This document shows positions 11,431 to 62,815 of a DNA stretch of 64,000 nucleotides, piece after piece; position 1 is the stretch's first letter, and the number at the start of each line of letters is the position of its first letter. The notes under the pieces are model-generated. The model was given only the letters and a program-made list of their open reading frames with translations. It was not told the origin of the DNA and did not search any database. Source of the stretch: Zopfochytrium polystomum. Lineage: Eukaryota; Chytridiomycota; Chytridiomycetes; Chytridiales; Chytridiaceae. Made by a program: the position numbers and the translations under genes. The stretch spans positions 62,001-126,000 of the forward strand of contig JAIVFJ010000099.1 in assembly GCA_025765615.1 (NCBI GenBank). Reading direction: 5' to 3'.

Positions 11431-12105
11431 CCAGTGCCATCGCAATGCACTCTGCTGCCTGCTTTGTTAACTCTGAGGCACCTGGGACCACAGATTATTT
11501 TACAGGCGAAGCCACAAGCCACTATGGCTCTTCACAAATGACACTCATGAACCAGCTGCATACACTGATGCATCCTATGGGGCGAACCTGGAGACTGCAC
11601 ATCACGCACTGGATATGTTTTTTTCCACATGGGCGCTGCTGTCTCTTGGGTCTCTTGCAAACAACATTGCGTATCACAATCCTCCACAGAAGCAGAATAC
11701 TACTCACTTTCTGAAGCCTTCCAAGAAGCACAATGGCTCTTGGCCATATTATCAGAGTTGCAACTCCCCGCACAGCAGCCACTTCCAATCCTTGAGGACA
11801 ATCAATCTACATTCGCGCTAGTCCTCAACCCTCTCACACATGCTTGCACAAAACACATTGACATAAGTGCTAATTTCCTCCAACAAGGCGTAGCCACTGG
11901 AGAGATCACTGTACACTACATACCAACCAGCAACCAGATTGCAGACATTCTCACAAAGTCACTCTCAACAAGCACCAGCGACTGACCTCACTACTTGGCC
12001 TCCCACCCCACTCCAACCTTTCAAACACTCTTTCAGTCAAAGCCTCAGACACTTACGCACGCTTTGCATAACAGGTGCTACACCCATGGCCATTGTGCGG
12101 GGGGG
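11430..12105 (+). pseudogene. Ty1/copia RNase H remnant
   Basis: A decayed end of a copia pol. The clearest block is at 11629-11985: GAAVSWVSCKQHCVSQSSTE, then AEYYSLSEAFQEAQWL, KHIDISANFL and the terminal IADILTKSL. This is the order of the copia RNase H C-terminal part. The upstream YTDASYGANLET segment lies in another frame, so at least one frameshift is present. A polypurine-like run (GCGGGGGGG) directly precedes the LTR at 12106, as expected for the 3' end of an LTR retrotransposon. The rest of the element is missing. Confidence 0.8.
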
Positions 12106-12516
12106 TGTTAGCAGGAACTGACTGGTTAGCAGAAGAGGCACAAGACAGACACAAACCTATTATGACTGTCAGTTATCGTTCTTAAGATGCCCATGGGGGA
12201 GCAAGCCACTGCCAATGCAGACCTGGGCGCTGGCTTGTGCTGTTGACAAATACTTCAAGTATTAAGTGGAATGGAAACCTGGTGTCAACAGTTTTCCTCC
12301 TCCTCTGCTCAAGCAGATAATATAGGAGAGGTTTTTACCCTGTGCCAGTCACACTTGTCTAGCAACTATTACATTGTGCATATCATCATCATGTATAAAT
12401 TATTCATAACAGAGTATTTCTCTTTCTCTCCAAGTTGGAGAGAAGGACCACCAGCAAACACACATCTCCACTTCGTTCGCTCCTTCCACTCACTCACTCA
12501 GAGTATACTGTTTACG
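12106..12516 (+). mobile_element. Copia LTR, about 410 bp (3' LTR of the remnant)
   Basis: Starts TGTTAGCAGGAACTGACTGG and ends around CTGTTTAC(G), where other copies end CTGTTTACA. The same LTR recurs at 23,894, 41,430-41,808 (minus), 49,266/52,182 (split) and 62,509. It follows the copia RNase H remnant and a purine tract, which defines it as the 3' LTR. Confidence 0.8.
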
Positions 12517-21311: not shown

Positions 21312-22664
21312 ATGCCCCTCGTTCTGGTGAGTGGGAGCAGCCGCAAGCCTGCAACCCATTTGATGATGAAGATGATGATGATGATGATGATGATGGTGTT
21401 GGTGGTGGCGATCGGTTTGTTGGCCTAATCCTTTGGCGCGCCTTCTCCCCCCTTGTGTCGCCCCGTCTCTCCACTCCCCACCAAAGGTTACCGGTGTCAC
21501 TGGCTTCATTGCCGCTCACGTTGCGCACGAGCTCCTGTCGAACGGCTACCACGTCCGCGGAACGCTTCGCAGCATCGACAAGGGCGAGTACCTCAAGTCG
21601 GTCCTGCCCCACCCGGAGAACCTGTCGTTTGTGGTGGTGAAGGACCTGATCGACGAGGGCGCGTTCGACGAGGCCGTTAAGGGCGTCGACTACGTGATTC
21701 ACTGCGCGTCGCCGTTCCACTACAAGGTGCAGGACGCCTACAAGGACCTGATCAACCCCGCCGTCCTCGGGACCACCGGCATCCTCAAGTCCGTCGCCGC
21801 CCACGCCCCCTCCGTTAAACGCGTCGTCATCACCTCGTCCATGGCCGCCGTTCGCACCCAGACCCCCACCAACCCAGAGGGCCTGTCCGAGTTGGACTGG
21901 AACAATGGCGCGGTCGAAGGCCTGGAAAAGCAGGGCGCCAGCACCCCGCCGGGCATTGCCTACCCGGCGTCAAAGACTCTGGCCGAAAGGGTGGGTTGGG
22001 TTGGGGGGTGGGCGCGGCGCTTTCTTTGCTCTGGGTCGCTTCGTTTGGAGATCTGACGCTGTGCTTCTCTCGTTACAGGCCGCGTGGGACTTTTTGAAAG
22101 AGTCCCCTCGCTCTTTTGACCTCGTTGCTTGCAACCCTCCGTTTGTTTACGGTCCACTATTGCAGAAGGTCACGTCCGTCGACGAGGTCAACACGTCGGT
22201 AGGTCATCTTTCCCCCCACTCTCGTCTTTGATCGATTTCATATGAGATCGTGCCAACGTATAGTAATATTCCCCTCCCCCCTTTCTTTTTCGTGTGCCCT
22301 TCTTTAGTGCAAGTACATCGCCGACTACCTGACCGGCACGACGACCAAGATTCTCCCGATCGCCGCCGGCTTCGTCGACGTGCGGGACGTCGCCCACGGT
22401 CACGTCCGCGCTCTGACAGTTCCCGAAGCCGGAGGAAACCGCTTCATCCTCTCCGGAGGCTCCGCCTCGCACGAGGAGCTGGTGGCGGTCCTTCGCAAGG
22501 CCTTCCCCGACCGCACGTTCCCGCCCGCCGGCGAAACTCAAACGTCTGTTCCTCTGAGAGAGATCAACACCAAGGCGCGGAAGGTCCTCGGGGTCGAGTT
22601 CCGCACATTGGAGCAGACCGTCAAGGACACCGCCGACAGTCTCATTGAAAAGTTGAAGATTTGA
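21312..22664 (+). CDS. NAD(P)-dependent epimerase/dehydratase-family reductase (Gre2/dihydroflavonol-reductase-like), copy 1
   Basis: Exons 21312-21326, 21487-21990, 22079-22198 and 22308-22664 give 331 aa. The first exon codes only five residues, MPLVL, which complete the Rossmann motif VTGVTGFIAAHV after splicing. Further family marks are HVRGTLRS (cofactor-discriminating basic residue after beta2), CASPF, VVITSSMAAV, the catalytic Tyr-Lys as YPASK, and CNPPFVYGPLL. This is the extended short-chain dehydrogenase type near yeast Gre2 and plant DFR/CCR. Substrate is unknown; an aldehyde or ketone is likely. The gene at 32,007-33,399 is a paralogue with identical exon lengths. The upstream intron holds a GATGAT run and a second repeat-rich segment. 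Confidence 0.9.
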
Positions 22665-23150: not shown

Positions 23151-23500
23151 CACGAGAAGGAGATAGCCGAGTTGGTCCAGCCCAATGTTCTGCAGGGTTA
23201 TGCAGACGCCAGTTATGCTGAGTAGGAGGGGTGTTGAAGCTGTTTCGGTAATGTATTCCTTCTAGCTGGGGCTGCGGTGAACGGGTTGAGCAAAACCAAA
23301 GTACAGTTGCTCTGTCTTTGACTGAGGCAGAAAGAAATGCCTTGCAGAGGCGGTAAAAGAAGTGAGCTGGACAAAGACCAAGGAAGATAACATGTCGACC
23401 ATAGCAATTGTCATGAATCTGGTGCACCATGGTTGTGTCAACACACTGAGCGTCGGGTTGGTTTATTTACGTCAGGAGCTCAAGGAGCAGAATATCCAGT
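23150..23500 (+). pseudogene. Copia RNase H remnant
   Basis: In shifting plus-strand frames I can read GYADASYAE, then GNVFLLAGAAVNGLSK, STVALSLTEAE and ALAEAVKEVSWTK, the copia RNase H order. At least three frameshifts or stops break it. It ends against the gypsy-type LTR at 23,502. Confidence 0.7.
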
Positions 23501-23520
23501 TTGTTATGAATCACCCTCTG

Positions 23521-23629
23521 GAAACCTCTGGAACCTTCTAGAACATTCCTTCATGGAACCTTCTGGAACCTTCTGGAACCTTCTAGAACATTCCTTCATG
23601 GAACCTTGCGGAACCTTCTGGAACCTTCT
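23521..23629 (+). promoter_or_regulatory. Heat-shock-element-like array (GAAnnTTCnn)
   Basis: Read in 5-bp steps, the units are GAA, CTC, GAA, TTC, GAA, TTC, TCA, GAA, TTC, GAA, TTC, GAA, TTC, GAA, TTC, TCA, GAA, TTG, GAA, TTC, GAA, TTC. This is about 22 consecutive pentamer slots, most of them perfect alternating nGAAn/nTTCn, the binding pattern of heat-shock factor. Three or more such units are normally enough for HSF. Confidence 0.7.
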
Positions 23630-23738
23630 TTGCTTTCCTGACTTGTCTTGTTGTCATTGGTATCATTGGTATCATTGTATTACTAATTGCTCTTTCTGGA
23701 ACTTTCTTTGAGTCTTGACAAGGAAGACTCTCAAAAGG

Positions 23739-23745
23739 TATAAAA
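23739..23745 (+). promoter_or_regulatory. TATA box of the gypsy-type LTR
   Basis: TATAAAA lies about 110 bp downstream of the HSE-like array; the same spacing is kept at 47,309 and 51,105. Transcription would start about 25-30 bp further on. Confidence 0.6.
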
Positions 23746-23893
23746 GGGGGATGGGGGACCTGTCCCATCCCTCAAGTGAATTATTGTTTCCAATACATTC
23801 ATCACTCCTCTCAGTTCCTTGTCTGCCTTGTCCTGTCCTGCCCTGTTCCTGACACAGTTGGAATTTTGCAGGATGGAAGACATGGTTGTGGAC

Positions 23894-24158
23894 TGTTAGG
23901 CGGAACTGACTGGTTAGCAGCAAGAGGCACAAGACAAACCTGAACCTATTGTCACTGTCAGTTATCGTTCTCATGATGCCCATGGGAAGAGTGAGCCACT
24001 GCCAATGCAGACCCAGGTGATGGCTTGCGCTGTTTGACAAATACTCCAAGTCTTACTGGAATGGAAACCTGGTGTAAACAGTTTTCCTCCTCCTCTGCTC
24101 AAGCACATGAGTTTTTTTCCCTGTGCCAGTCACAAATAATTCATAACAGAGTTTTTCT
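23894..24158 (+). mobile_element. Copia LTR, partial
   Basis: Starts TGTTAGGCGGAACTGACTGG and aligns with the LTR at 12,106. It has an internal deletion after GTGCCAGTCAC and lacks the last ~100 bp. Confidence 0.7.
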
Positions 24159-25368: not shown

Positions 25369-27587
25369 ATGGCCGTCGTCGCCGCCGCCGCCGCCGCCCC
25401 CTCTGCCCTTGCTGCTCTGGGCGCCTCCTCCTCCACCTCGTCGTCATCCTCGTCGTCCTCCCCGTCGTCCACTGTTTTTGCCTCGACCTTGATGTCGTCG
25501 CTGGACCGCCATGCAATCAACGCCGCAGCAGCAGGAAAGGAGGCGATAATGACGGCGACGACGATGACGGCGACGATGGCGTCGATGGCTTCGAGGACGG
25601 GGTCTCCACCTTCACCTTCCCGAGATCTCGCCGCCCCGACTTCATTTTCGTCACCAGCGTCCTCCACCCACAGCGCCTCCTCCTCCTCCTCCTCCTCCTC
25701 CTCCTCCGCTTTCCCCTCATCCCCCTCCCGCCCCAGTAATCCGTCACATCCTCAATTCGCCCTCACCCCGTACTCCTCCCAAGTCCACAACCGCAGCAGC
25801 CATCGACACTCCCAGAACCACCACTACCACCATTCCTACACGCACCAGCCGCAGCAGCACCTGATTGTCCTTCCCGCCTCTTTGACGACGCAGTCGTCCA
25901 CACCGACATCGGCAGCGGCGGCGGCGGCTTCCCGCGGCGTGTCGTTTTTTGACCCCTCGCGGTTGATCCACATCTCGACGCCGTCGCCGCTGGTCACGGT
26001 GCCAACCGCATCATCCCCGTCCTCGACCTCATCGCCGCCGCCGCCGCCGTCGTCGCGGCCGTCGTCCGTCGCCATCGGCGGGCTGGCGGGTGCCGCGACG
26101 GCCGGATTCTTGGAACTGTTTTTGTTTCATCCAGTTGACACAGCCGCGAGTGAGTGTGCCGTTCCTCTATTTCTCTCACACACGCACGCACCACACACAC
26201 TCTGTCTCTTTCTCTCTCTCGCTTTCCTCGGTCCGCCTCAACCCTGTGCGGATTGGCTTTCGCGCGCTGGCGTTGGGTGGGAGGAGAACCGACCCATTCG
26301 AGCAAGCAAGAAAAAGCGCAAAAAAGACAGCGCGAAGAGGGCGGGCGGAGAAAGAAAGAGAAAATTTGAGGAACAGACAACCCATGACGCCGTCGCTGAC
26401 GCCCGACTTTCCCCACAGAGCGCCTCATACACCACCGGGGAAGGAACTTTCCTCGAGGCTCTTCCTACAGGGAGGCCGCGATGGGTCTACGTAAAATCAT
26501 CTTCAAGGATGCCGCGAATAAGGGAAACCTGAGGGCGCTGGCGAGCCTGTACCCGGCGTTCGGGTACGCCGTCCTCTACAAGATGCTTCAACGGTGCGCG
26601 CGTTTTTCCGTCCGGCCTTGACACTATTCTCGCAAGTAGTACAGAACAACCGCGCTGACCCTATCCCCCACGCCCCTGACACTGACACTAGGTCGCTGCA
26701 GTTTGGTGTCCACCCGATCGTCAACGCGCACATCAGAACAAACTACGGCCCGTCTTTCACGCGCACGGTCGGCGACACGTGGGCGAAAACCCTGATGGCC
26801 GGCTCCGCCGGCGTCGCGATCGGCATCGCCGAAGTCGTCCTGCTCCCCCTCGACGCGCTCAAGGTCAAGGGCCAAACCGGCACCAAAATGCTGTCCCACG
26901 CCTCCTCGCCACCGGCGCCGTCGGCGCCGCCAACGCCGCCTCCGCCGCCGCCGCACGTCCCCGCTGCTGCCGCCACCGCGACCACCACCTCCCACCTCGC
27001 GTCGGCGGGTGCGAGACACCTGCACGCGGCGGCGGCACCACCGCCGGTGCCACGGCCGACTCCTACTCCGACGACGACGGTGGCGCACCTCCTGCGCAAC
27101 CCCTTGCTCCTCGCAAACCTGTACCGCGGGGCGTCGTGGACCGCGGCGCGCAACGCGTTCGGCTGCTTTGCGCTGTTTGGCGCGTCGACGCTGGTCAAGG
27201 ACCAAGTGTTCCACCACTACGCGCCGCCGACGTCGGCTTCCGCGTCGCCGCCTCCGCCACCACCCGTGTTTGAGCTGTTTGTCGCGTCGCTGGCGGGAGC
27301 GACTGCGTCGATCGCGGTGGCGGCGCCGCTGGACGTGGTCAAGGTGCGAGTGCAGGCGTCGCCGTTGGACGCGCCGGTGTCTGGGTTCGCGGGTGATACG
27401 AGGGTTGTTGGCGACGGAGGGGATGTGGGCGCTGACAAAGGGCATCGTGCCCAAGCTGCTGGCGTCGGCGCCAAAGGTCACGTTTTCGTTTACGGTGGCG
27501 CAGGCGCTGGCGGCGTACTTTGAGGAGCGGTTGGGCGGCGGCGGCGGCGGCGGCGGTGGTGGGGGGACTCGTGGCGGGCGGCATTGA
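25369..27587 (+). CDS. Mitochondrial carrier, Yhm2-like (citrate/2-oxoglutarate type), three exons, with apparent frameshift
   Basis: Exons are 25369-26149, 26419-26593 and 26692 onward. All three carrier signatures are present: HPVDTAAKR, PLDALKVK and PLDVVKVR. The segments LASLYPAFGYAVLYKMLQR, ARNAFGCFALFGAS and GIVPKLLASAPKVTFSFT match the Yhm2 subgroup of inner-membrane carriers, so citrate/2-oxoglutarate exchange is the best guess. Three features are odd. There is a Ser/Ala/His-rich N-terminal extension of roughly 230 residues. Pro/Ala-rich loops are inserted after the second signature. At 27,390-27,393 one extra base separates VSGFA from VIRGLLATEGMW, so the last ~65 residues lie in another frame. 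This could be a sequencing error or a disabling mutation. The gene ends in poly-Gly. Confidence 0.8.
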
Positions 27588-34218: not shown

Positions 34219-37200
34219 TTACTCGGCCTTCTCCTTCGCATCCTTCCCGTCGCCCGTCGTCTCCACCTCCGGCACGCCGACAAGCAAGAACCGCTCAATC
34301 GCCCACGCCTCGCACAGCGCGGCCGCCCACGCCCCGGCCGACGCCGAAAGCAGCTTCGCGCCCAACGCCGCCGTTGCGCCCCCTCCGCCGGCGCCGACGC
34401 TTCTCCAGACCCCCAAATGGGACACCGACGCGCGCGCGGCAAAGAAAAACGGCACAACGAGCGCGACGCCGTCGACGCCGCACCACCGGGACGCCAGCCA
34501 GTACTGCGCCGCGGGGTACGCGGCGTCGATCAGCGCGCCGCGCGCGATCGAGAGCAGCGACTCGCGCGCGCTGTCTGTCGCGAGTGTGTTAGTGGTCGCG
34601 TGGAACAGGAGTAACTGGACAAGCGCGAGGAGCGCCGCGGCGGCCGCGCGGCGCGACGCGCGCCGCGTGCCTGGGCGGGTGTACGCGAGGACGTGGTGGA
34701 CGAGCGCGTTCGTGAGGGACGCGCTGATCATGGTCTCCAGGAAGTCGCGGGCGGCTTTGACGAAGGAGAAGAAGGAGGAAGAAGAAGAGGCGGGAGAAAG
34801 GTCAAGGTGTACGGCGTAGACCGTCACCGAGCCGCCGGTCGTTGAGCGCAGAAAGGTGGGGACGAGCAAGTTCTCGACGAGCGACTTGGGGGCGAGCAGG
34901 AACAGCGCGGGGCAGACGAGGAGCGGCACGTCGCGAGGGAGCGAGAAGCGACGGGCGACCCGCGCGTCCCACCGCCGGTACGTGAACGGCGGGGCCAACT
35001 GCGTAACGAGAAAGCTCATGGACAAGCTTCCGAGACCCCCTCCCAGCGCGTTCGTGAACGCCTTGAACAGCACCTGCGGCCCGATCGGAACGGCCGGGTC
35101 GAGCGCCGTGAGCGAGTTGGGGAGGTTCAGCACGGCCTCGGTGACGTTCGCCAGCACGATCACGGCGAAAAACGCGGCAATCCAGCGCCGCTGAATGCCT
35201 TGCCGCGCGACTTGGCGAAAGTACGCGATCATCAGTCCGAGAACCAGAAAGGTCGCGGCCGTTCCTGCCGCAATCCTGAAAGGCGCGAGGTGATTCTGGC
35301 TCGCCTGCTGGCTCTGCCTGTACTGCTGGGAATGCTGCAGCACCGTTGAAAACGCGGCGACCCTGTTGTCCGACACTCTGACTTGATGGACAACCTTAGC
35401 GTCCAGCGGAAGCCCCTCGTAACGCAGGTCGGCGAAATGTACTTCCCAGTCGCGGCGGGCGGGGAGGTTGCTGGCCGCCGTCTTTTCCAAGCGAATGCGG
35501 TCCCTCTCGAGCCCGAGACCGCTGCACGCTTGAGCGGAGCCGCCGCCGCCGCCGTTCTCGCCGCCCGGTCCGCAGCCCAGGAACTCGACCGCCAGGTCGA
35601 CGGCGTTCGACTGGTCGACGTGGGCGCCGGGCGCGCCCAGGGCGACCGCGTGGCGGAACGACGCGAGGCGGCCGCGAAAGTCCCAGACGGCCTCGAACGA
35701 CTCTTGCCGGGCACGCAGCCTGCTGTTCAGGGCGGAGTGGGCGTCTTCGCCGGCGCCGCTGAAGAGCGCCGGGGACGAGGACGAGGAGGATTTTGCGTCG
35801 GCGGCGTCGGCGGCGTCGCCAAACAGGCAGCGCGTGTGGACGATCCACCCGGACTTTGCAAAGAACGGTTCGTCCAGCAGCAGCAAGTCGATATTCGTGT
35901 CCTTGTTGGGTCCGCGGACGTGCCGCAGCAGGAAGAACGGGTCCACGTCCTCGCGCACATTGACGAGCGCGACCGTGTACCACGGTGACCCGGGCGGCGG
36001 CGGGGTTACCCCCGTGGCCGCAAGCAAGGCCGACGCGGCGCCGGCCCACTCGCGGGCGGTCGACGACGAGCGAGCCAGTGCGTGCCGCGTGGCGGGCGCC
36101 ATGTGGGTGAGGTTCATCGTCGCCTGGAGCGCCAAAGTCGACTGCAGCGCGTCCTGCGGGGTGGTCTGCACGACCTGGTAGACGTCGATTTTGCGCGGGT
36201 TGCGGGCGAAGAGGACGACGGCGAGGGAGCCCGCAGCGAGCAGGAGCGCGGGGCGACGGAGGGACGCCGGGGCGCGCAGCATCGCTTTGTACCAAAGATC
36301 CGCGTCCCCCGCGGCCGCGGAAGCGCTTTTCTTTGCCGCGGCGGCGGCGTCGGCTGCGGAGGCTAAGACGTCGGCGTTGCTGGCCGAAAGGTCTGAGTAG
36401 CACACAACGGGCGGCGGCGGCGGCGCGACGACGGCGGTCGCCGAAAACTCTGACACGAACGTCGGGATGCACAAAGCCAGCGGGCCGACAAGGAACAGTG
36501 CCACCAGCGCTTGGCTTCCAAAGAAGATTGCCGGGTTTGCGCTCAAGACGGTGCGCGCCATAAGCACGAGATCGTAGTGGAAATGAACGAGGAAACATGG
36601 TAGGAGGCCGTATTCAATGTAGAGCATGCCGTACATAACGGAAGGCAGAAATAGTTCGACGATACGCGCGTAGCTTGGCTGCATAGCGTAGAATGCGTGG
36701 CAGCCGCCGAAAACAAGAGCCTGGACGACGATCCCAAGCACAATAAAAGTCTGACGCATACCGACGCGCTTTCCCAGTAGGGTGAAGCCAGAGATAATCA
36801 CTGCTCGGAATATGGCCTCTTCAAACAAGCCAGCAGAAAAGGCCATGGCCGTGGGGCCGATACCGGGAAAGTAGGAAGCGACGGCGTTCGGGTTGGTGAG
36901 GTTTTGAGTGGGCAACCAGAAACCAAAGTACTGCGTCGCGATCCAATAAAAGAGCTCCACGAACAGCATTTTGATGGGTACAAGCACTGAGGCGACGAAA
37001 ACCTGTTCCGCGACGATTGGATGGGGTCGACCAGAGAAGAGGGAGCCAACCGCAAAAGAGAGAGCGGGAAGGCGTGGAAATGCCCGAGCGGTAAGACCGT
37101 CCGCGATGCTCAGGCAAAACGACGTCATAAGAGGATTAACCGCTGTTGATGACAGTACGATCGACAAAGCAGTGACCAAAAAGGATAGCCTCGATACAGA

Positions 37201-38163
37201 CGTATTGTACTGAAACCATATTTGGTTGAGGTCGCTCAGGTTGCCGAGGAAAGTGAGCGCCGTGTACAACGCCGCAACACGCAAGGGGAAGCGGAAGCGA
37301 AGCTCTTTGTTTCGGTACAGGTGCCAGAGCCCCGCAGTGAAGGCGAGGGCGGCGAAAACCGCCACGGCCATCGTCGCAATTTTGGTGATGTTCTCGTTGC
37401 TGGCGCGCAGCCGCGTCATCCGAAGCTTGTGGTCGGGAGGCACGAGATAATCGGTGCTCACTTTCGTGACTTTGTCACCCTTGACCTCGACGGCGGCAAA
37501 GAAAGTGGCCTCGCCGAGGCGGACGTCCTTGTCCTCGAACTGGATAGAATGGTCCTGGCGCAGCGACTTTGACACCGACGCCACCGCGTGGGACGACACG
37601 GACAAGTTGAGCGGGGCCAGCCACGGAAAGCTCTCTCGGAGAAAGTCGGCGGCCGCCGCAACGGCTTCGTCGCGGGACAGGGTCGGCAGCGCGGTGGACT
37701 CGTTCAGAGAAGCGCGGAACGACACGACCCTGCCGTCGGCGGCGGCGACGAGGAAGCTTGTCTCTTCAAACTCGAGCTCCTTGAAGACGCGGACGTGCCA
37801 GGCGTGGAAGGGCACCAGCGCGTCGTCGGCGCGCGCGTAGGCCGCAAACGCCGCGCGGCCGCCGCCGCTCAGCTCGAGGTACGAGCCGAGCTGGGTCGAG
37901 CTTTCGTAGCGCGAGGCGACGGCGACGCCGCCGTCGGGAGCACCAAGCAGCAACGGCGACAGCGGGGGCAGGGCGGCGCGTTTGGCAAAGTCGAGGGCGA
38001 TTGCTTCTGCGCCGGCGGCTGTGACGCCGCCGTTGCGGCCGACGCGGGCGACGGCGGGGAAGGCGATGGAGTCGAGCACGACGCAGCCTACGGTGGCGGC
38101 GACTGCGGCCACGACGGCGGCAACCGTTACGACTGCGCGGCGCGGGCGGCGGCGGAGAGGCAT
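34219..38163 (-). CDS. CPBP-family intramembrane protease with internal duplication, single exon
   Basis: One uninterrupted 1,314-aa ORF from ATG 38163. An N-terminal anchor (AVVTVAAVVAAVAATVGCVVL) leads into an extracytosolic domain. A multi-spanning region follows with the CPBP/Abi catalytic motifs: FEEAIFR (EExxxR) near residue 445, FGGCHAFY near 490 and LVHFHYD near 530. From about residue 640 the plan repeats: another extracytosolic domain (YQVVQTTPQDAL...), then hydrophobic helices (TAATFLVLGLMIAYF; IAAFFAVIVLANVTEAVL). The segment in the EExxxR position reads DFLETMISASLTNAL. The second half therefore looks catalytically dead. CPBP proteins include CAAX prenyl proteases and bacterial peptide-processing enzymes; the substrate here is unknown. 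ATG 38457 is rejected because the extension is homopolymer-coded. Confidence 0.75.
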   Translation of the reverse strand: MPLRRRPRRAVVTVAAVVAAVAATVGCVVLDSIAFPAVARVGRNGGVTAAGAEAIALDFAKRAALPPLSPLLLGAPDGGVAVASRYESSTQLGSYLELSGGGRAAFAAYARADDALVPFHAWHVRVFKELEFEETSFLVAAADGRVVSFRASLNESTALPTLSRDEAVAAAADFLRESFPWLAPLNLSVSSHAVASVSKSLRQDHSIQFEDKDVRLGEATFFAAVEVKGDKVTKVSTDYLVPPDHKLRMTRLRASNENITKIATMAVAVFAALAFTAGLWHLYRNKELRFRFPLRVAALYTALTFLGNLSDLNQIWFQYNTSVSRLSFLVTALSIVLSSTAVNPLMTSFCLSIADGLTARAFPRLPALSFAVGSLFSGRPHPIVAEQVFVASVLVPIKMLFVELFYWIATQYFGFWLPTQNLTNPNAVASYFPGIGPTAMAFSAGLFEEAIFRAVIISGFTLLGKRVGMRQTFIVLGIVVQALVFGGCHAFYAMQPSYARIVELFLPSVMYGMLYIEYGLLPCFLVHFHYDLVLMARTVLSANPAIFFGSQALVALFLVGPLALCIPTFVSEFSATAVVAPPPPPVVCYSDLSASNADVLASAADAAAAAKKSASAAAGDADLWYKAMLRAPASLRRPALLLAAGSLAVVLFARNPRKIDVYQVVQTTPQDALQSTLALQATMNLTHMAPATRHALARSSSTAREWAGAASALLAATGVTPPPPGSPWYTVALVNVREDVDPFFLLRHVRGPNKDTNIDLLLLDEPFFAKSGWIVHTRCLFGDAADAADAKSSSSSSPALFSGAGEDAHSALNSRLRARQESFEAVWDFRGRLASFRHAVALGAPGAHVDQSNAVDLAVEFLGCGPGGENGGGGGSAQACSGLGLERDRIRLEKTAASNLPARRDWEVHFADLRYEGLPLDAKVVHQVRVSDNRVAAFSTVLQHSQQYRQSQQASQNHLAPFRIAAGTAATFLVLGLMIAYFRQVARQGIQRRWIAAFFAVIVLANVTEAVLNLPNSLTALDPAVPIGPQVLFKAFTNALGGGLGSLSMSFLVTQLAPPFTYRRWDARVARRFSLPRDVPLLVCPALFLLAPKSLVENLLVPTFLRSTTGGSVTVYAVHLDLSPASSSSSFFSFVKAARDFLETMISASLTNALVHHVLAYTRPGTRRASRRAAAAALLALVQLLLFHATTNTLATDSARESLLSIARGALIDAAYPAAQYWLASRWCGVDGVALVVPFFFAARASVSHLGVWRSVGAGGGGATAALGAKLLSASAGAWAAALCEAWAIERFLLVGVPEVETTGDGKDAKEKAE

Positions 38164-39227
38164 GACTGATCGAACTGGATTTGACTTTCTTTTTTTTTTT
38201 TTTTTTTTTTTTTTTTGTTCTTTTTTGCTCACTTTTGTTTGTGCACGGCTTTTTGTGCAACCTGGAACAAGAATTTTTTTACGCCCAAAAATGGGGCGCG
38301 CCCAGTCGCAGACCCCAGCGCCGCGCCTGGGCAATCTCACCTTCCTTCTGCAAGTGGAACCTGAATGACTTGTGTGGATCGCAACGCAAAAAAAAAAATT
38401 GAGACAAAAAATTAACGAGACCCCCGAAAGAAACCGAAACTCGATCCCCGACAGCAAAACTCAAACGCACCTCCTAAGCCCAATCCTTCCGTGAATCGAA
38501 GCGTTCGCGAAAATAAAAAAAAATTTAGCGAAAAACAGTCTGTTCACACCATCCTCAATACACACACACACACACACACATGCCCACCCGCCATCGATCG
38601 CTGCATTACCCACTTGCAGACCGCAAAATACCCACCTCCCCCTCCCACTCCCCCTAGCGGGGACTTGAGCACCGACGTCTGACACAACCAGCGCTGCATG
38701 AACCCACTTTGCTGTCCCACCACGCTGGGCGCCGCGTGGTGCGGCTCGAGGCCTACGCCCCACGGTGGATGCGCGGCGGCGATGATGCGGCGAAGACAGG
38801 GAAGCGGCGGCAGCAATGTGGTGTGAAGGAAGAGGAGGACAGGGCGGGGGGGAAGCCTGATTCACCTGGGCATGTGGGAAACTCTGAACCCTCGCAAACA
38901 CTTTGACCTATGCAAAACACAAGCAGGGTCTGCCATAAATGGAGTGACCAATCAGGGGTGTCTAACTTTGGAGGCCAATTGAACTGCGTAAAGAAGCTGT
39001 AGAGAGCTGCGTAATATCTTGTTGGAAAGAGGAGATTCAGAGCTTTCAAATGCACTATTGCACGCCCAGATTGAATGGCAGAGTCAGCTGGGAGAGGGTG
39101 CGGAAAATTTTTGGCCCCCAAACAAGAAGGTTTCAAAAGTGCTGATTCTGTTTGTTGGCGTTGGTAGAGATTGATGTTCTGAGCTAGAATCTGTGGTTGA
39201 TGCAGCCAGATAGCTTGCATGCTGTTG
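38164..39227. other. Intergenic: promoter side of CPBP gene and unknown repeat
   Basis: T-rich run at about 38,188-38,216, a CA run at about 38,562-38,580 and no convincing ORF. A minus-strand reading of 39,379-38,753 is open but lacks recognisable coding features. Confidence 0.4.
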
Positions 39228-40352: not shown

Positions 40353-41429
40353 ACCTCACCATTTCTGCATACTGCTTAGGTTGGACTGGGTAGGAGCCAC
40401 TTGGTGATGGAAGGATGGAGGGTAAATCTGTGGTGGTGCCTCTCGGTTCCTGTCAATACATCTAGTCAAATCCAGGTCTCTCAAGGTGATATGAATGAGC
40501 TGGCTGGTCAGGTACTGCTGCAGGAATGGTCTCAGGTATGCCCCCTCCTCCCTGGTTGTTGGCTCCTGTGGCCTCTGGTGGGCCTGGTCTTCACTGGGTT
40601 CAGACCCTCTTTCTCTCAGATTAATGCCTGTGATGTCATGGTGCCACATTTGGGTGAGGGAGTGGGTGTTAACCTTCCTTGCTTCTAAGATAGGGAATTC
40701 CTCTGGCTTGGTGAAGCAGATGTCTGTGTCCTAGTAGGATGAAGTAAGAAGAGTCCCACTGTCTCCCACCCCTGTGTGCCCCCTCCTTGGATTGAGTTGG
40801 AACTTCTCCTTGGAGTGAGACAAGTTGTGTCTGGTTCTGTTAAGTGGAAAACAGTTCTGATTTAATTCAAAGGACACCTCTGCACGCTAACTGTTCCTTG
40901 TGTTTGCCCTCTGTGTCCAACCCCCTCCAACTTAGGGCTTGTCTTTGACAGAGAGGGAGCCTTGCTCCATGGTGGTGGCTCCAACAGACCAGGGTCTGGC
41001 CACTTTCCTCCCCACTCTCTTGTCTTCTTCAGGTGGATTGGAGTGCTGCACTTAGTGCCGCTCCCTGGAGCTTGCTGCATCTTGCGCCTCCAGCATTGTT
41101 ACCAGATTTCCCTGTCCCCTTTGGCTTTGGCTTTTGCCTCCCATTAGGCCCACTCTGTGTCATGGACCAGAGAACCCTGTACATTCTTTGCTAGTGTGCC
41201 ACCTTTTCACAGTTGCCTTTGGTCTGAGTGTGAGAGTCTTCTCTTTGTGTGTAGTAAGAGTTTTCTTTGTGTTTCTTGGGCTTCTTAAGACTCCAAATAC
41301 ATTGTCCTGTCTAGTGACCCCTAGACATCTCCTTTTTGCCCTTTTTCACTTTTCAGGATTGGTATTTAGGCCATTGCTCTATTTGCCAACCATAGCCCAG
41401 GGTGAGGATTTAGAGAGCACAGTCTCACA

Positions 41430-41808
41430 GGAGTGAATGAAGTGGAGATGTGTTTGTGGGTGGTCCTTCTCCCCAACTTGGAGAGAAAGAGAAAAAAAAC
41501 TCTATTATGAATTATTGATACATAATGATGATTTGCAAAATGGAATAGTTGCTGGGCAAGCGTGACTGGCACAGGGGAAAACCTCTCCTACATTATCTGC
41601 TTGAGCAGAGGAGGAGGAAAACTGTTGACACTGGGTTTCTGTTCCACTTAATACTCGGAGTATTTGTCAACAGCACAAGCTTGCGCCCAGGTCTGCATTG
41701 GCAGTGGCTCGCTCTCCCATGGGCATCGTGAGAACGATAACTGACAGTCACAATAGGTTCGGGTCTGTCTTTGGCCTCTTGCTGCTAACCAGTCAGTTCT
41801 GCCTAACA
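41430..41808 (-). mobile_element. Solo copia LTR
   Basis: Reverse complement of the TGTTAGGC... LTR. It begins at 41,808 and lacks the last ~35 bp of the 3' end. Internal match includes TTGGAGAGAAAGAG and GAGGAGGAGGAAAACTGTTG. Confidence 0.75.
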
Positions 41809-43588
41809 GCACCATATGGTTTTCCCATTTTGCCCAACTCTTTGGTTGGGTTCTGCACGTATGCGTGTGCCTTTGAGTAAGTCTGCAGAGGGGCTTTAGC
41901 TTCCTTACTGTAACAGCAAGTTGCGGATATTATCTAGTTCGTAATTGAACTCCTCTTGCGAGGCCTGGGCCATGTGGTGCAAACTGCGCAGCGCCAGCTG
42001 GGTCCAACAACAATTAGTTCATATTCATCGAAGATAAAATGTGAGAGCCAGTAGGTATAAAAAAAATGTTTTCTGGGTGGGCTAATTTTCTTACTTTGCA
42101 ACTTGATGGTGATCATGACTCTGGTTGACAGATTTATTTGGGAATGATTGCGTACACCAAAGGCAATTTCCACCAGTTTATTGTCATATTGAGCTTAGTT
42201 GTTAGGTGGAACGGACTGGATTAAGTCTTCATAGTGGAGAAATAGAGAAAAGTTATGGAAACAACTGGAATTTATCTTAAGTTCGCATAGGTTCACGTGT
42301 CACATATAAAAAAATGTAATGTGTAAAATGTCTCATAGTTAAAGTAAGAGCCTAAACCTTGTGTGCGCGTATCTCATATACCCAGAACATGCTTGACTTG
42401 GCCGCCTCCCAACCTAAATACCCACCAACTTCCTTGGCGACCGTGAGAGAAGCGCCCTCTCAGATGTTCTTTGACTTTGAGAAGGGGCACGCACGCCTCC
42501 TGCATGCGTTTATACTTATTCCGTCCGCGTTTCTCCTCTTTTCTTTGTGAGTTTGTTCATTTGTGTGTGTGTGTGTGTCGTGTCTGCATATTCTGGGGCA
42601 GAAAAGAGAAAAAAAAAAAAAAAAAAAAAACAAAAAGCGAGGCCAGCGCGTCCTGGCGAAACACCCGGGCCGGAAATGGGGTGCTTGTTTGTTGTTTTTT
42701 TCTTTTTTCTTTCCTGGTCGGTCTCCCAGCACCGCGCACCCAATCAGCGTCTTCGCCATCAATGAATCCGAAATTTCGCGCCCCCGACACGAGTCAGTCA
42801 TGTGACCGCCTCGCAGCCAACAATTTGGCTCTGTCTGTATGTCTGTTTGTCTGTCTGTCTGCCTGTCTGTCTGTCTTTCGCATAGTGCACAGTGCCCTCA
42901 GCTGTGTGGCTGTTTTCCTATTTGTGTAGTTAGTCCCTTTTGTTTCCCCTTTCGGTAAATTCAAAAAGAAAGGTTTGTTTTTCTTTGTTTATTTTTTGTT
43001 GTTCCCAAGTCGTTTTCCTCACATGACATCACACTCGTGTTTGTCTCCGCTGCACTCGACCCTCCTTTTTTGTTCACGCGACCATAGACAGAGGAATGCA
43101 GAGTGTGTCTGTCTTAGCGGGATCCTCAGGGAGACGAGACAGGAAAAGAGAAAAGAAATGCGCAAACACTGCAAGAAGGCAACAAAACCATCTCTCTCTC
43201 TCTCTCTCTGTCTCTCACTCTCTCTCTCTCTCTGTCTCACACACACACACACTCTCTCTCTCTCTCTCTCTCTCTCCTGTCAGCCCTCAGCCATCAATCA
43301 TTGCAATATCTTGGCTGGATTTCATTGCCTGTCCTCACTCACTAGATTTTCATTCAGGCGGGCCCTTTCGGTCGTTCCCGCAAAAGTATCGTCATCTGGG
43401 GCAGCTTCATTAGGCAGCATCAGCATCAAGCACGCCCACTCTCGCTTTTTCAAAACCGAGGCGCACCAGCAAGTGTTTTGCGCTACGTCTCTGCATCGTC
43501 AGCAATCATCAACCACCAGCATCAGCAGGCCTCCGCCACTGCCTAGACCCACCCACACCTACATTGGTCCTACTTTCCCGACGCAGCC
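41809..43588. other. Intergenic: upstream of secreted-protein gene
   Basis: Contains an A-rich run at about 42,608-42,630, GTCT repeats at 42,838-42,876, and CT/CA microsatellites at 43,190-43,275. ORFs here are repeat-coded and not supported. Confidence 0.5.
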
Positions 43589-47118: not shown

Positions 47119-47425
47119 TGTTATGAATCACCCTGGAAACCTCTGGAACCTTCTAGAACATTCCTTCATGGAGCCTTGTGGAACCTTCTGGAACCTTCTT
47201 TGCTTTCCTGACTCGTCTTGTTTTCATTGGTATCATTGGTATCATTGTATTACTACTTGCTCTTTCTGGAACTTTCTTTGAGTCTTGACAAGGAAGACTC
47301 TCAAAAGGTATAAAATGTGGATTGGGGGACCTGTCCCATCCCTCAAGTGAATTATTGTTTCCAATACAATCATCACTCCTCTCAGTTCCTTGTCTGCCTT
47401 GTCCTGTCCTGCCATGTTCCTGACA
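47119..47425 (+). mobile_element. 5' LTR of a Ty3/gypsy element, with HSE-like array
   Basis: TGTTATGAATCACCCT...CCATGTTCCTGACA, 307 bp. It carries an HSE-like GAA/TTC array at 47,136-47,199 and a TATA box at 47,309. A gag ORF starts 36 bp downstream. Confidence 0.8.
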
Positions 47426-47460
47426 TCATAATTCACTTCACCCTCTCCTTCCACGCCATC

Positions 47461-49265
47461 ATGTCTGACCCAAACAACACCTTCCCTGATGCAACTGCCT
47501 TCCAAGCCTTGATGGACAAATTTCAAGCCCTTTAAAGACAGGCACACCAACTTCAAGAACAAGTCCTTCACCAGCAGCACCAGCTTCAACAACAACTTCA
47601 CCAACAAGAACATCAAGCTCTTCCCCTGCCCCAAGCCAACCAAGCAAGAGAGCCCAAGGTTCCCAGCCCTGACAAGTTCACTGGGCTGGCCAAAGACCTT
47701 AGGAACTTTATGGCCACTGTGGAGAATGTCATCCTTCTCCAACCTTCAAGATTTCCCAGTGAGCAAGTCAAGGTTCTTTTCACAAGCACCCTCCTGTCTG
47801 GTCAAGCTCAATCATGGTACAGATCTCTCCCAAGCACACCCACCACCCTGCAAGAGCTCTGGGAGGGGCTGGAAGCTACCTTTGGTGACCCCTACGCATC
47901 TTGGACAGAAAGATCCAAGCTTAAGCATATCAAGCAAGGAAAGCAATCTTGTGTGGCCTACACCAACCAATTCAAGCAACTAGCCAGAGACTCTGGATAC
48001 AATGATGCAGCTCTGATGGAGCTGTACCATGATGGTCTCCATGAGTCCATCCAAGACATGCTCTCCCAGTCTCTACACATCCCTGAGACCTTGGAAGAGT
48101 ACATTCTCCTTGCCATCAAGATTGACAACAGACTCTACTCCAAGAGGCTGAAGCAAAGACAAGTAGGAACTACATCAAGACCTACCCCAGTCCCTCAAGC
48201 TCTTACAGTTCCTGAACCCATGGAAGTGGATGCAGTTGAGACACTTCCTAAGGGTCCTCTGAGCCAAGAGGAGAAACAAGGAGGGCCCAGCAGCGATTGT
48301 GTTTTTACTGTGGCTCCAAGGACCACGCTGGCAAGGCCCAAGGAAGAAGCACCCAAACTCCCAGGTCCAGGCTCACTGAGGGGCGATTCCCTGGACTCTT
48401 CTCCAAGCTGCCCCTTCTTCATCACCACCACCAGCACCACAAACACCTCAGATTCCAAGCCCCACCAACTCTCCATGGATTTCAAGATTCAACTCTCACC
48501 CAAGTCAACCATCACAACCAAAGCCCTTATCGACACTGGATCATCCTGCAACATCATTGATGCCACCCTTGCCAAGTCTTGTGCCATTCCCACCATCATC
48601 AAGAAATCCACACCCCTCAAGGTCCACTTTGCCAATCATGCTCTGTTCAAGGAAATCAGCCATGAAACCAAGCCAAACCTCCACATCCAAGACTTTCCAC
48701 CATCCATGGTCAACCTGGAAGTATTGGAGCTTGGTTCACCCATATTCTCTGTCATCCTGGGATTACCATGGCTGCAAGCCCAGAACACTGCCTTTGATTG
48801 GGTCACTGGTCACAGAACCCACAGTCAAAGATTCAAGTACCACAGTTCACAGTCCACATTCAAGATTCAAGTTCCACAGCTCACAGCCTTTGCCAAGAAC
48901 AGAACTCTCAGTCAAAGATTCAAGAATCACAGTTACCAGTCAAGAATTCAAGCCCCACTGCTGATGAGCACAGAAGGACAGACCTTGCACCTGAAGGGGG
49001 AGATGGTTTCACCCCACAATCCAAGACACACCTTTCACTGCTTCCTGACAGTGTGTGGGCCGATGCTATTTCCAAGGACTCCGAGCCTCACAAGATTCAA
49101 ATCAGCCAAGAAGAGGAAAAGCTTGAGATACTCAAGACCAGGCATGGTGCAGCAACAGCTGGACACCCAGGAGAGCACAAGACATATGAGCTTGTTTCCA
49201 GAGACTTCTACTGGCCAGGCATGAGGAAGTACATCAAGAACTATGTCAGCAACTGTAAAACCTGT
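47461..49265 (+). pseudogene. Ty3/gypsy gag-protease with fused integrase zinc-binding end (RT and RNase H missing)
   Basis: The gag starts MSDPNNTFPDATAFQAL and is broken by a TAA at 47,533. It continues with a retrotransposon-gag domain (LLSGQAQSWYRSLP; YTNQFKQLARDSGYNDAALM). A CCHC-like knuckle (CFYCGSKDHAGKA) lies in another frame. Then comes an aspartic protease with ALIDTGSSCNIID, followed by VILGLPWLQ. Short repeated SQRF..HS units follow, and then directly the HHCC zinc-binding part of integrase (RHGAATAGHPGEHKTYELV; YVSNCKTC). Reverse transcriptase and RNase H are absent. The sequence stops at 49,265 where a copia LTR is inserted. Confidence 0.82.
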
Positions 49266-50879: not shown

Positions 50880-51195
50880 TCTTATGAATCACCCTCTGGA
50901 AAGCTCTGGAACCTTCTAGAACATTCCTATGGAACCTTCTGAAACCTTCTAGAACATTCCTTCATGGAGCCTTGTGGAACCTTCTCAAACCTTCTTTGCT
51001 TTCCTGACTTGTCTTGTTGTCATTGGTATCATTGGTATCATTGTATTACTAATTGCTCTTTCTGGAACTTTCTTTGAGTCTTGATAAGGAAGACTCTCAA
51101 AAGGTATAAAATGTGGATGGGGGACCTGTCCCATCGCTCAAGTGAATTATTTTTTCCAATACAATCATCACTCCTCTTAGTTCCTTGTCTGCCTT
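50880..51195 (+). mobile_element. Truncated gypsy-type LTR with HSE-like array
   Basis: Matches the LTR at 47,119 from TTATGAATCACCCTCTGG to TTGTCTGCCTTG and lacks the last ~30 bp. It abuts the integrase fragment, whose coding strand is opposite. GAA/TTC array 50,899-50,994; TATA box 51,105. Confidence 0.75.
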
Positions 51196-52181
51196 GGTTC
51201 AACCTCAAATTCCTCTTCACCTTCTACCTCAACTGGAGGAGGAGGAGGAACAACTCTGCCTGGAATGGAGTTGGCCACAAACTTCTCCAAAAGGCTGACA
51301 TAGAAAACTGGGTGGATCTTCATAGATGCAGGAAGATCCAGCTTGAAGGTGACTGGATTGATTTGCTCCAAGATCTTGAAAGGTCCCAACTTGAGGTTGT
51401 CCAGCTTGGGACTTGGTCTTTTGGTCTGCAAGTTTTTCCTCGGAGGCCAAACTTGCTGACCCACAGCAAGGTCATGGCCCATTCTGTGAGTGTTGCAAAT
51501 CTTGAGGCATCTTCTTGGGCTCTCTTCAGGGTGGGAGTACAGGAAGGTGCTGATGATCTTGAGCTTATGCAAGTGTGAAGCCACAGCAAGAGCTTGGACA
51601 TTGGATAGGGTCCCTTGTCCCAGAAGATCTCCTCTTGGATTGAAGCCATATGTTGTAAAGAAAGGAGATAGCTGGGTGCTTGAGTGGAGAGAATTGTTGA
51701 GAGCAAATTCTGCCAGTGGAAGGAGGGTGGGCCAATCATCCTGTTGATAGCTGACATAGCACCTCACTCAAATACTGCTCCAGGGTCTGGTTCGTTCTTT
51801 CTGTTTGTCCATCAGTCTGAGGGTGATAAGCAGTTGACAGTTGAGACTTGATTCCAAGGGCTGCTGTGAGTGCTTTCCAAATTTGGGATCTGAACTGTGG
51901 TCCTCTGTCACTGATGATTGACTGAGGCAGTCCATGGAGCCTGAATATGTGCTGCAAAAACAGGTCTGCTGTTCCTTGTGCATCTATATTCTCAGTGTAG
52001 GTGATGAAATGGGCCAACTTTGTCCTTCTGCAGATGACAACAAGGATAGAGTCAAATCCATGGGATGGTGGCAGTTTCACAATGAAGTCCATGGATATTG
52101 ATGACCAAGGGCTGGTGGCAATTGGGAAGGGCTCCAGAAGTCCATAGGGCTTGTGTCTGCTGGATTTGTTTCTTTGACAGG
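51190..52181 (-). pseudogene. Ty3/gypsy integrase catalytic core and C-terminus (inverted fragment)
   Basis: Minus-strand reading gives CQRNKSSRHKPYGLLEPFP, then the integrase core with SMDFIVKLPPSHGFDSILVV (first Asp), IISDRGPQFRS (second Asp) and HPQTDGQTERTNQTLEQYL (Glu). A frameshift near 51,760 leads to WPTLLPLAEFALNNSLHSST and a C-terminal GPFKILEQINPVTFKLDLP domain. Its beginning, at CCTGT, is the direct continuation of the integrase HHCC part that ends at 49,265. The two pieces were thus one element before inversion. Confidence 0.85.
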
Positions 52182-62508: not shown

Positions 62509-62815
62509 TGTTAGGCAGAACTGACTGGTTTGCAGCAAGAGGCACAAGATGGACCGGAACCTATTGTTACTGTCAGTTATTGTTCTCACGATGCTCATGG
62601 GAGAGTGAGCCACCGCCAATGCAGACCTGGGCACTGGCTTGCGCTGATGACAAATACTCCGAGTATTAAGTGGAACAGAAACCCAGTGTCAACAGTTTTC
62701 CTCCTCCTCTGCTCAAGCAGATAATATAGGAGAGGTTTTTACCCTGTGCCAGTCACTCTTGCCTAGCAACTATTACAGCGTGCATATCTCATTATGTATC
62801 AATAATCTATATAAT
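62509..62815 (+). mobile_element. Solo copia LTR, partial
   Basis: Starts TGTTAGGCAGAACTGACTGG and matches the 12,106 LTR as far as TAGCAACTATTACAG and a short stretch beyond. The last ~100 bp are missing. Confidence 0.75.

Follow-up and report, generated by a model that had tools for sequence, protein, structure and literature searches.

The window analysed here is a 64,000-nt stretch of the Zopfochytrium polystomum genome, part of contig C99, and searches were run on the 80.16-Mb genome assembly. It contains a solo long terminal repeat (LTR) of 353 bp (23502..23854, forward strand; TGTTAT...CTGACA) that has no internal region and is flanked by two identical 5-bp target-site duplications (TSDs; cagtt, read directly at 23497..23501 and 23855..23859). 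Its best-scored genome matches are 98-99% copies over about the same span. The LTR holds an array of heat shock elements (HSEs; 23521..23628, +), a TATA box (TATAAAA, 23739..23745, +) and AAGTGAATTAT (23774..23784, +), the predicted start of R, which would be both the mRNA 5′ end and a self-primer. The LTR lies ~0.8 kb past a frame ending at 22664, which by eye looks like a reductase, and a mitochondrial-carrier match on the same strand (26522-27523) follows ~2.7 kb beyond it; any effect of the LTR on these two frames is conjecture. Elsewhere in the window, four repeats (23886-24134, 11738-12515, 41429-41815 and 62509-62806; best identity 91-94%) are each common to 11-14 fetched loci, and the first of them directly adjoins the solo LTR. 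A 1,413-aa uninterrupted frame on the reverse strand (34219-38460) has a single CAAX protease (Rce1-like) match mid-frame.

The original prediction described this array as about 22 consecutive strict pentamers. We found 22 units phased on a 5-bp grid, as predicted, of which 18 have exact GAA or TTC cores, compared to a mean of 3.9 and a maximum of 7 when the LTR was shuffled 1,000 times with dinucleotides preserved. The claimed strictness did not hold: GAA/TTC alternation is strict only within runs of 4, 8 and 4 units. Units 2 (CTC) and 18 (TTG) are degenerate, while units 7 and 16 read TCA and coincide with a flip of the alternation, which is interrupted twice, each time by CTTCATG. The three runs, all upstream of the TATA box, each exceed the three adjacent phased nGAAn units that would be expected in the LTR promoter of an HSF-driven (heat-activated) retrotransposon. 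The four-unit pattern GAAnnTTCnnGAAnnTTC matched eight times in the 64-kb window, always inside one of three LTR copies, and never in 100 dinucleotide shuffles.

Shorter phased arrays had been foreseen near 47,136 and 50,899, about 110 bp upstream of a TATAAAA, and both are present (47136-47198 and 50899-50994); the distance from array end to TATA box is exactly 110 bp in all three window copies (TATA at 23739, 47309 and 51105). The second copy (47119..47425, +) is the 5′ LTR of a partial element. It is followed by a primer binding site (PBS), TCATAATTCACTT (47426..47438, +), and by an open frame (47536..49224, +) matching Retrotrans_gag (PF03732, E 8e-12) and an aspartyl protease (PF13650, E 6e-5, just under the curated cut-off). 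The third copy (50882..51196, +) is truncated at both ends.

Identity, priming and abundance of the element

The same PBS sequence follows the LTR in all five further elements inspected (L011, L014, L017, L020 and L034). The 13-nt stretch that follows the 5′ LTR contains an 11-nt exact complement of AAGTGAATTAT, a length of complementarity that was reached in one of 2,000 shuffled LTRs. Such a PBS, complementary to the predicted mRNA 5′ end, is the arrangement of Tf1/sushi-type self-priming. Placed by this complementarity, the likely start site is at 23774, 35 bp after the TATA box, and the array would therefore occupy positions of about -253 to -146, in U3.

Across the element pieces we identified gag, aspartyl protease, reverse transcriptase (RT), RNase H, an integrase H2C2 zinc-binding domain, a Tf2-1-type SH3 domain and a chromodomain, and the claim of a gypsy LTR is borne out by these domains. 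The gag/protease (L014) and RT/RNase H (L102) pieces belong to one element (C1:121-127 kb), and the integrase zinc-binding and chromodomain pieces (L012) to a different, shorter copy (C1:91-94 kb), in which the chromodomain (PF00385, E 1e-16) comes after SH3_Tf2-1 (PF24626). The integrase core (PF00665) had no match in the six element pieces scanned. Judged by these domains, the element is a chromodomain Ty3/Gypsy LTR retrotransposon (a chromovirus), self-primed by a predicted pairing of PBS and mRNA. The best-scoring named relatives of its RT (P0012, P0014, P0016, P0018 and P0019) are annotated in frog genomes, with 57-62% identity over 49-72% of the query among the best 120 of 7,873 matches; horizontal transfer, descent from an old sushi-type lineage or contamination by fungal DNA could account for them.

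The LTR ends are of the TG...CA type, and a matching 5-bp TSD flanks the window copy, five further solo LTRs and three of the eight LTR pairs tested (L011/L012, L034/L035 and L014/L015). The flanks do not match in L026/L025 and L029/L028, and in the pair L032/L031 the second member is a solo LTR in its own right. The distance between LTR tags is about 4.9-5.4 kb for long forms of the element and 2.8 kb for a short form (2,783-2,829 bp, ~60% of the long-form length), which carries both 83- and 128-bp arrays and is perhaps a non-autonomous partner of the long element. Two short-form insertions, L011/L012 and L034/L035, have identical LTRs with matching TSDs, and by this measure the element appears to be young and recently active.

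The family is abundant. A 28-nt LTR tag, allowing up to 3 mismatches, matched 2,233 times genome-wide, compared to none for the reversed control, and a strict five-pentamer HSE matched 4,463 times, counting both strands and overlapping matches, compared to once for the reversed pattern. The 100 five-pentamer matches listed fall into 27 clusters, 25 of them in this LTR family; among the matches listed, 22 clusters lie at most 300 bp from a perfect LTR tag, three (C3:34476, C3:39428 and C5:537081) are inside listed LTR spans, and two (C3:472624 and C5:431919) are outside the listed spans of the family. For Cladochytrium polystomum, an 81.2-Mb genome with 12.3% transposable elements has been reported, with a citation of the work in which Zopfochytrium was erected (PMC9926174).

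Host heat shock factors and chaperone promoters

The genome has 14 matches to the DNA-binding domain of heat shock factors (HSFs; PF00447), and SFVRQLNMYGFHKV, the standard recognition helix, is present in all five HSF domains translated; the C19 domain matches solved HSFs, one of them at 3e-26. The five translated sequences differ and come from separate loci. Three of them we take to be HSF1-like, while C65 and C34 are unlike these three outside the helix. Some HSF and small-HSP genes are near-duplicates on short contigs and may be alternative haplotypes.

The genome has 33 matches to HSP20 (PF00011), 12 of them nearly full length, and we read the 1 kb upstream of 12 of the 33. The motif GAAn7GAAnnTTC lies 49-93 bp upstream of a TATA box in 10 of these 12 stretches and is missing from two (L090 and L092). 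Mononucleotide shuffles give 0.03 expected per set, a figure that overstates the surprise since the pattern was framed after reading the HSP20 promoters. Its conservation among the promoters is independent support for a candidate gapped HSE: of 45 promoter pairs, 29 have motifs at least 95% alike and the other 16, those joining L094 or L099 to the remaining promoters, have motifs 68-77% alike, while the upstream flanks align at 53-65%, excepting the near-duplicates L093/L101, L095/L100 and L097/L098 and also the pair L094/L099. With near-duplicate pairs collapsed to single entries, about seven cases remain. The motif amounts to four grid pentamers, one of them degenerate, and the host therefore uses the same phased code as the LTR.

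Extended HSEs are not a general rule of chaperone promoters, as a strict three-unit run was absent from all 12 HSP20 stretches. Of 41 HSP70 matches, seven were read over 601 bp upstream, and neither such a run nor the gapped form was found there; by our own reading, most of these seven look like genes for mitochondrial or ER-resident proteins. One HSP90 gene (C150) has a single gapped, reverse-oriented HSE 204 bp before its TATA box and 490 bp before the start codon, where 0.005 are expected per kb; upstream of the other (C43) neither form was present. The original prediction also suggested that copies may bring neighbouring genes under HSF; no LTR of this family was found at the fetched HSF, HSP20, HSP70 and HSP90 loci.

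HSF-driven transcription best explains the anatomy of the LTR, the host factor and the host promoters taken together. We consider it probable that the array, in the U3 promoter of this young and abundant self-primed chromovirus, is a multi-trimer platform for host HSF and gives stress-driven transcription. From what was observed directly (the anatomy, copy number, phasing and length variation of the LTRs, the host HSF domains and the host HSP20 HSEs) we infer that HSF binds the array, that heat induces the element and that it transposes under stress. Under heat or proteotoxic stress, HSF trimers would load cooperatively onto the array, activating Pol II transcription from the TATA box 110 bp downstream, with a start near 23774, and the 5′ end of the resulting mRNA would then prime reverse transcription. 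Long rows of HSF sites in a promoter imply that heat or protein stress probably switches the element on, and its heat induction is strongly indicated. The original interpretation is thus supported in part: gypsy identity and changing array length are confirmed, and an HSF-responsive promoter, as a prediction from sequence, has strong support in the position of the array in U3 upstream of the TATA box and predicted start, the host HSF helix and the HSP20 HSEs.

The array could instead serve HSF-family factors under a different cue, such as oxidative or osmotic stress or the development of zoospores or sporangia, through an HSF paralogue or a factor that we presume to be SKN7-like. The five differing HSF-domain sequences at separate loci, with C65 and C34 distinct outside the helix, would provide candidates for such an activator. 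However, HSP20 promoters bear the same phased code, which suggests a chaperone-type HSF, and we regard a non-heat cue as unlikely.

One could imagine that most of the strong HSEs in the genome now belong to this element, the host's HSP20 genes having a gapped HSE with one degenerate unit and the LTR family providing thousands of perfect multi-trimer sites. Under stress, these LTR sites would drive mass transcription of the element while titrating HSF, and array length, HSF number and HSP promoter strength would co-evolve as an arms race inside a single genome. We offer this only as a speculative extension of HSF-driven transcription, and a rather improbable one.

Array length, rearrangement and site variation

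The original prediction held that pentamers expand or contract between copies. They do, mostly in steps of 45 and 10 bp, and also between the two LTRs of one insertion. Array lengths cluster at discrete values, chiefly 83 and 128 bp. Two bins, defined by length only, hold 1,753 copies: 892 with arrays of 66-96 bp and 861 with arrays of 113-143 bp (controls, 0 in both), and among the 100 matches listed for each bin, 92 are at 83 bp and 92 at 128 bp. The 200 listed copies of both bins thus include 184 at these two lengths, 11 that differ in phase (73, 93, 118 and 138 bp) and 5 that differ out of phase (70, 82, 84 twice and 125 bp). In 41 LTR copies with both end motifs, two of which have an early end match, the array is 128 bp in 17, 83 bp in 13, 173 bp in two and 73 bp in two; the lengths of the remaining seven vary, and some do not fit the 5-bp grid. 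The 128 class adds an eight-unit run beyond the four-unit runs of the 83 class, and in the 173 class 26 of the 31 units are exact. Units randomised in most copies would have spoken against the original prediction; the longest strict run is instead at least 4 in 42 of 43 rows (8 in 22, 6 in 3 and 4 in 17) and 3 in one, the rows representing 42 LTRs with L030 entered twice.

Two substitutions and a single 10-bp unit distinguish the two LTRs of L014/L015 (TSD aaagt), and an array therefore changed during or after that insertion. At C1:658-673 kb, inverted copies (L020/L021 and L023/L022) have reciprocally swapped TSDs, agcta and ggtgc, as expected if recombination between oppositely oriented copies had caused an inversion; the arrays of one of these pairs differ by 90 bp. 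Tags or arrays also recur at constant spacing, four at 1,725 bp (C6:235-241 kb), five at 3,171 bp (C6:360-373 kb) and three at 4,952 bp (C11:158-168 kb), and these are probably head-to-tail element arrays.

We compared variable sites within the copies of commonest whole length in each class, which leaves out 5 of 17 copies in the 128 class and 3 of 13 in the 83 class. Variable sites in the 128 class (12 copies) number 0 of 60 in the cores, 5 of 48 elsewhere in the array and 7 of 225 in the later LTR; the corresponding numbers for the 83 class (10 copies) are 3 of 33, 2 of 30 and 20 of 225. In the pooled classes, the lower variability of core sites was not significant, either against other array sites (3/93 vs 7/78, P = 0.19) or against the remaining LTR (3/93 vs 27/450, P = 0.45), and it may reflect the young age of the copies rather than purifying selection on the GAA/TTC cores. 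The 128 class alone, one of the two classes, gave P = 0.015 for core against other array sites.

In-phase length steps are also expected from slippage of 10- and 45-bp units. A rival reading, which we consider very unlikely, is that slippage and ectopic recombination have merely spread a tandem repeat of no regulatory meaning, its phasing being a by-product of copying a short palindromic unit. In favour of this reading, the length steps mostly equal repeat units, ectopic recombination is visible in the swapped TSDs and the pooled cores are not significantly conserved; against it, the array end is fixed 110 bp upstream of the TATA box in all three window copies, the unit fits the HSF code exactly and host HSP20 promoters use the same code.

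Known heat-responsive elements and what the array may mean

HSF-driven transcription of the element also follows the logic of known systems, which we compared as they are described in the available portions of the cited papers. HSFA2 binds the LTR of ONSEN, and its activation requires HSFs (PMC3907296); in Brassicaceae COPIA families, at least four adjacent nGAAn units make the strongest response type (PMC5059998), and a strong element arose by duplication of a shorter one (PMC3907296, PMC5059998). By analogy with HSFA2 on ONSEN and with this four-unit rule, the runs seen here would be expected to respond to HSF. ONSEN/COPIA78 and the Brassicaceae COPIA families likewise have HSF-type elements in the LTR, but they are Ty1/Copia elements of plants, whereas the Z. 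polystomum element is a Ty3/Gypsy element of a chytrid. The longest cluster in the available descriptions, that of TERESTRA, has up to five nGAAn units, whereas strict runs in the present LTRs reach eight units and a single LTR can have as many as 26 exact units, and the described Brassicaceae COPIA families have tens of copies, compared to about 2,200 LTR tags.

Among fungi, Cryptococcus is a basidiomycete, MAGGY of Magnaporthe is a Ty3/Gypsy element and Tf1 is not known to have a chromodomain. The Cryptococcus elements TCN12 and TCN3 are mobilised at 37 C and have one (TCN12) or two (TCN3) putative LTR HSEs, and Hsf1 has been suggested to act on them (PMC12810828). They are fungal LTR retrotransposons with LTR HSEs, as here, but the available text mentions no long array; their mobilisation was measured, whereas the Z. 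polystomum element is known from its sequence. MAGGY has a chromodomain, as the present element does, and stress-induced promoter activation and transposition are reported for it (PMC3978060, PMC4600332), while the terms HSE and heat shock element do not occur in the available text of PMC3978060. In Tf1, Tf2 and Tj1 of fission yeasts, the PBS is complementary to the 5′ end of the mRNA, which primes its own reverse transcription (PMC4600332), and Tf1 is mobilised by stress (PMC6927752). The Z. polystomum element shares their priming arrangement and has a Tf2-1-type SH3 match in its integrase piece, but it has a canonical chromodomain, and the available accounts of Tf1, Tf2 and Tj1 describe no HSE array.

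In Caenorhabditis, many of the HSEs in the genome lie in Helitrons, where overlapping tandem HSEs are bound by HSF-1 (PMC6927752). These are HSE-rich transposons, as here, but DNA transposons in animals. The HSEs of these Helitrons are not known to act in the promoter of the transposon itself. The titles and abstract openings that we surveyed on HSEs or Hsf1 in LTR retrotransposons of fungi, chytrids and Zopfochytrium contain no description of this element. Its kind is thus already known from ONSEN, TCN12/TCN3 and MAGGY; the length and abundance of its arrays are unusual.

The element would extend the capture of HSF by LTR retrotransposons to an early-diverging fungus, a chytrid, and to a self-primed chromovirus. 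Its arrays exceed those of the known heat-responsive elements compared, as far as their available descriptions go, and about 2,200 LTR tags are present per 80 Mb. The natural, stepwise array lengths on otherwise similar promoters are a ready dose series for relating the number of HSF sites to induction, and the element offers a test of whether a stress factor can be sequestered by a transposon. Its copies have probably scattered candidate stress-response switches across the genome.
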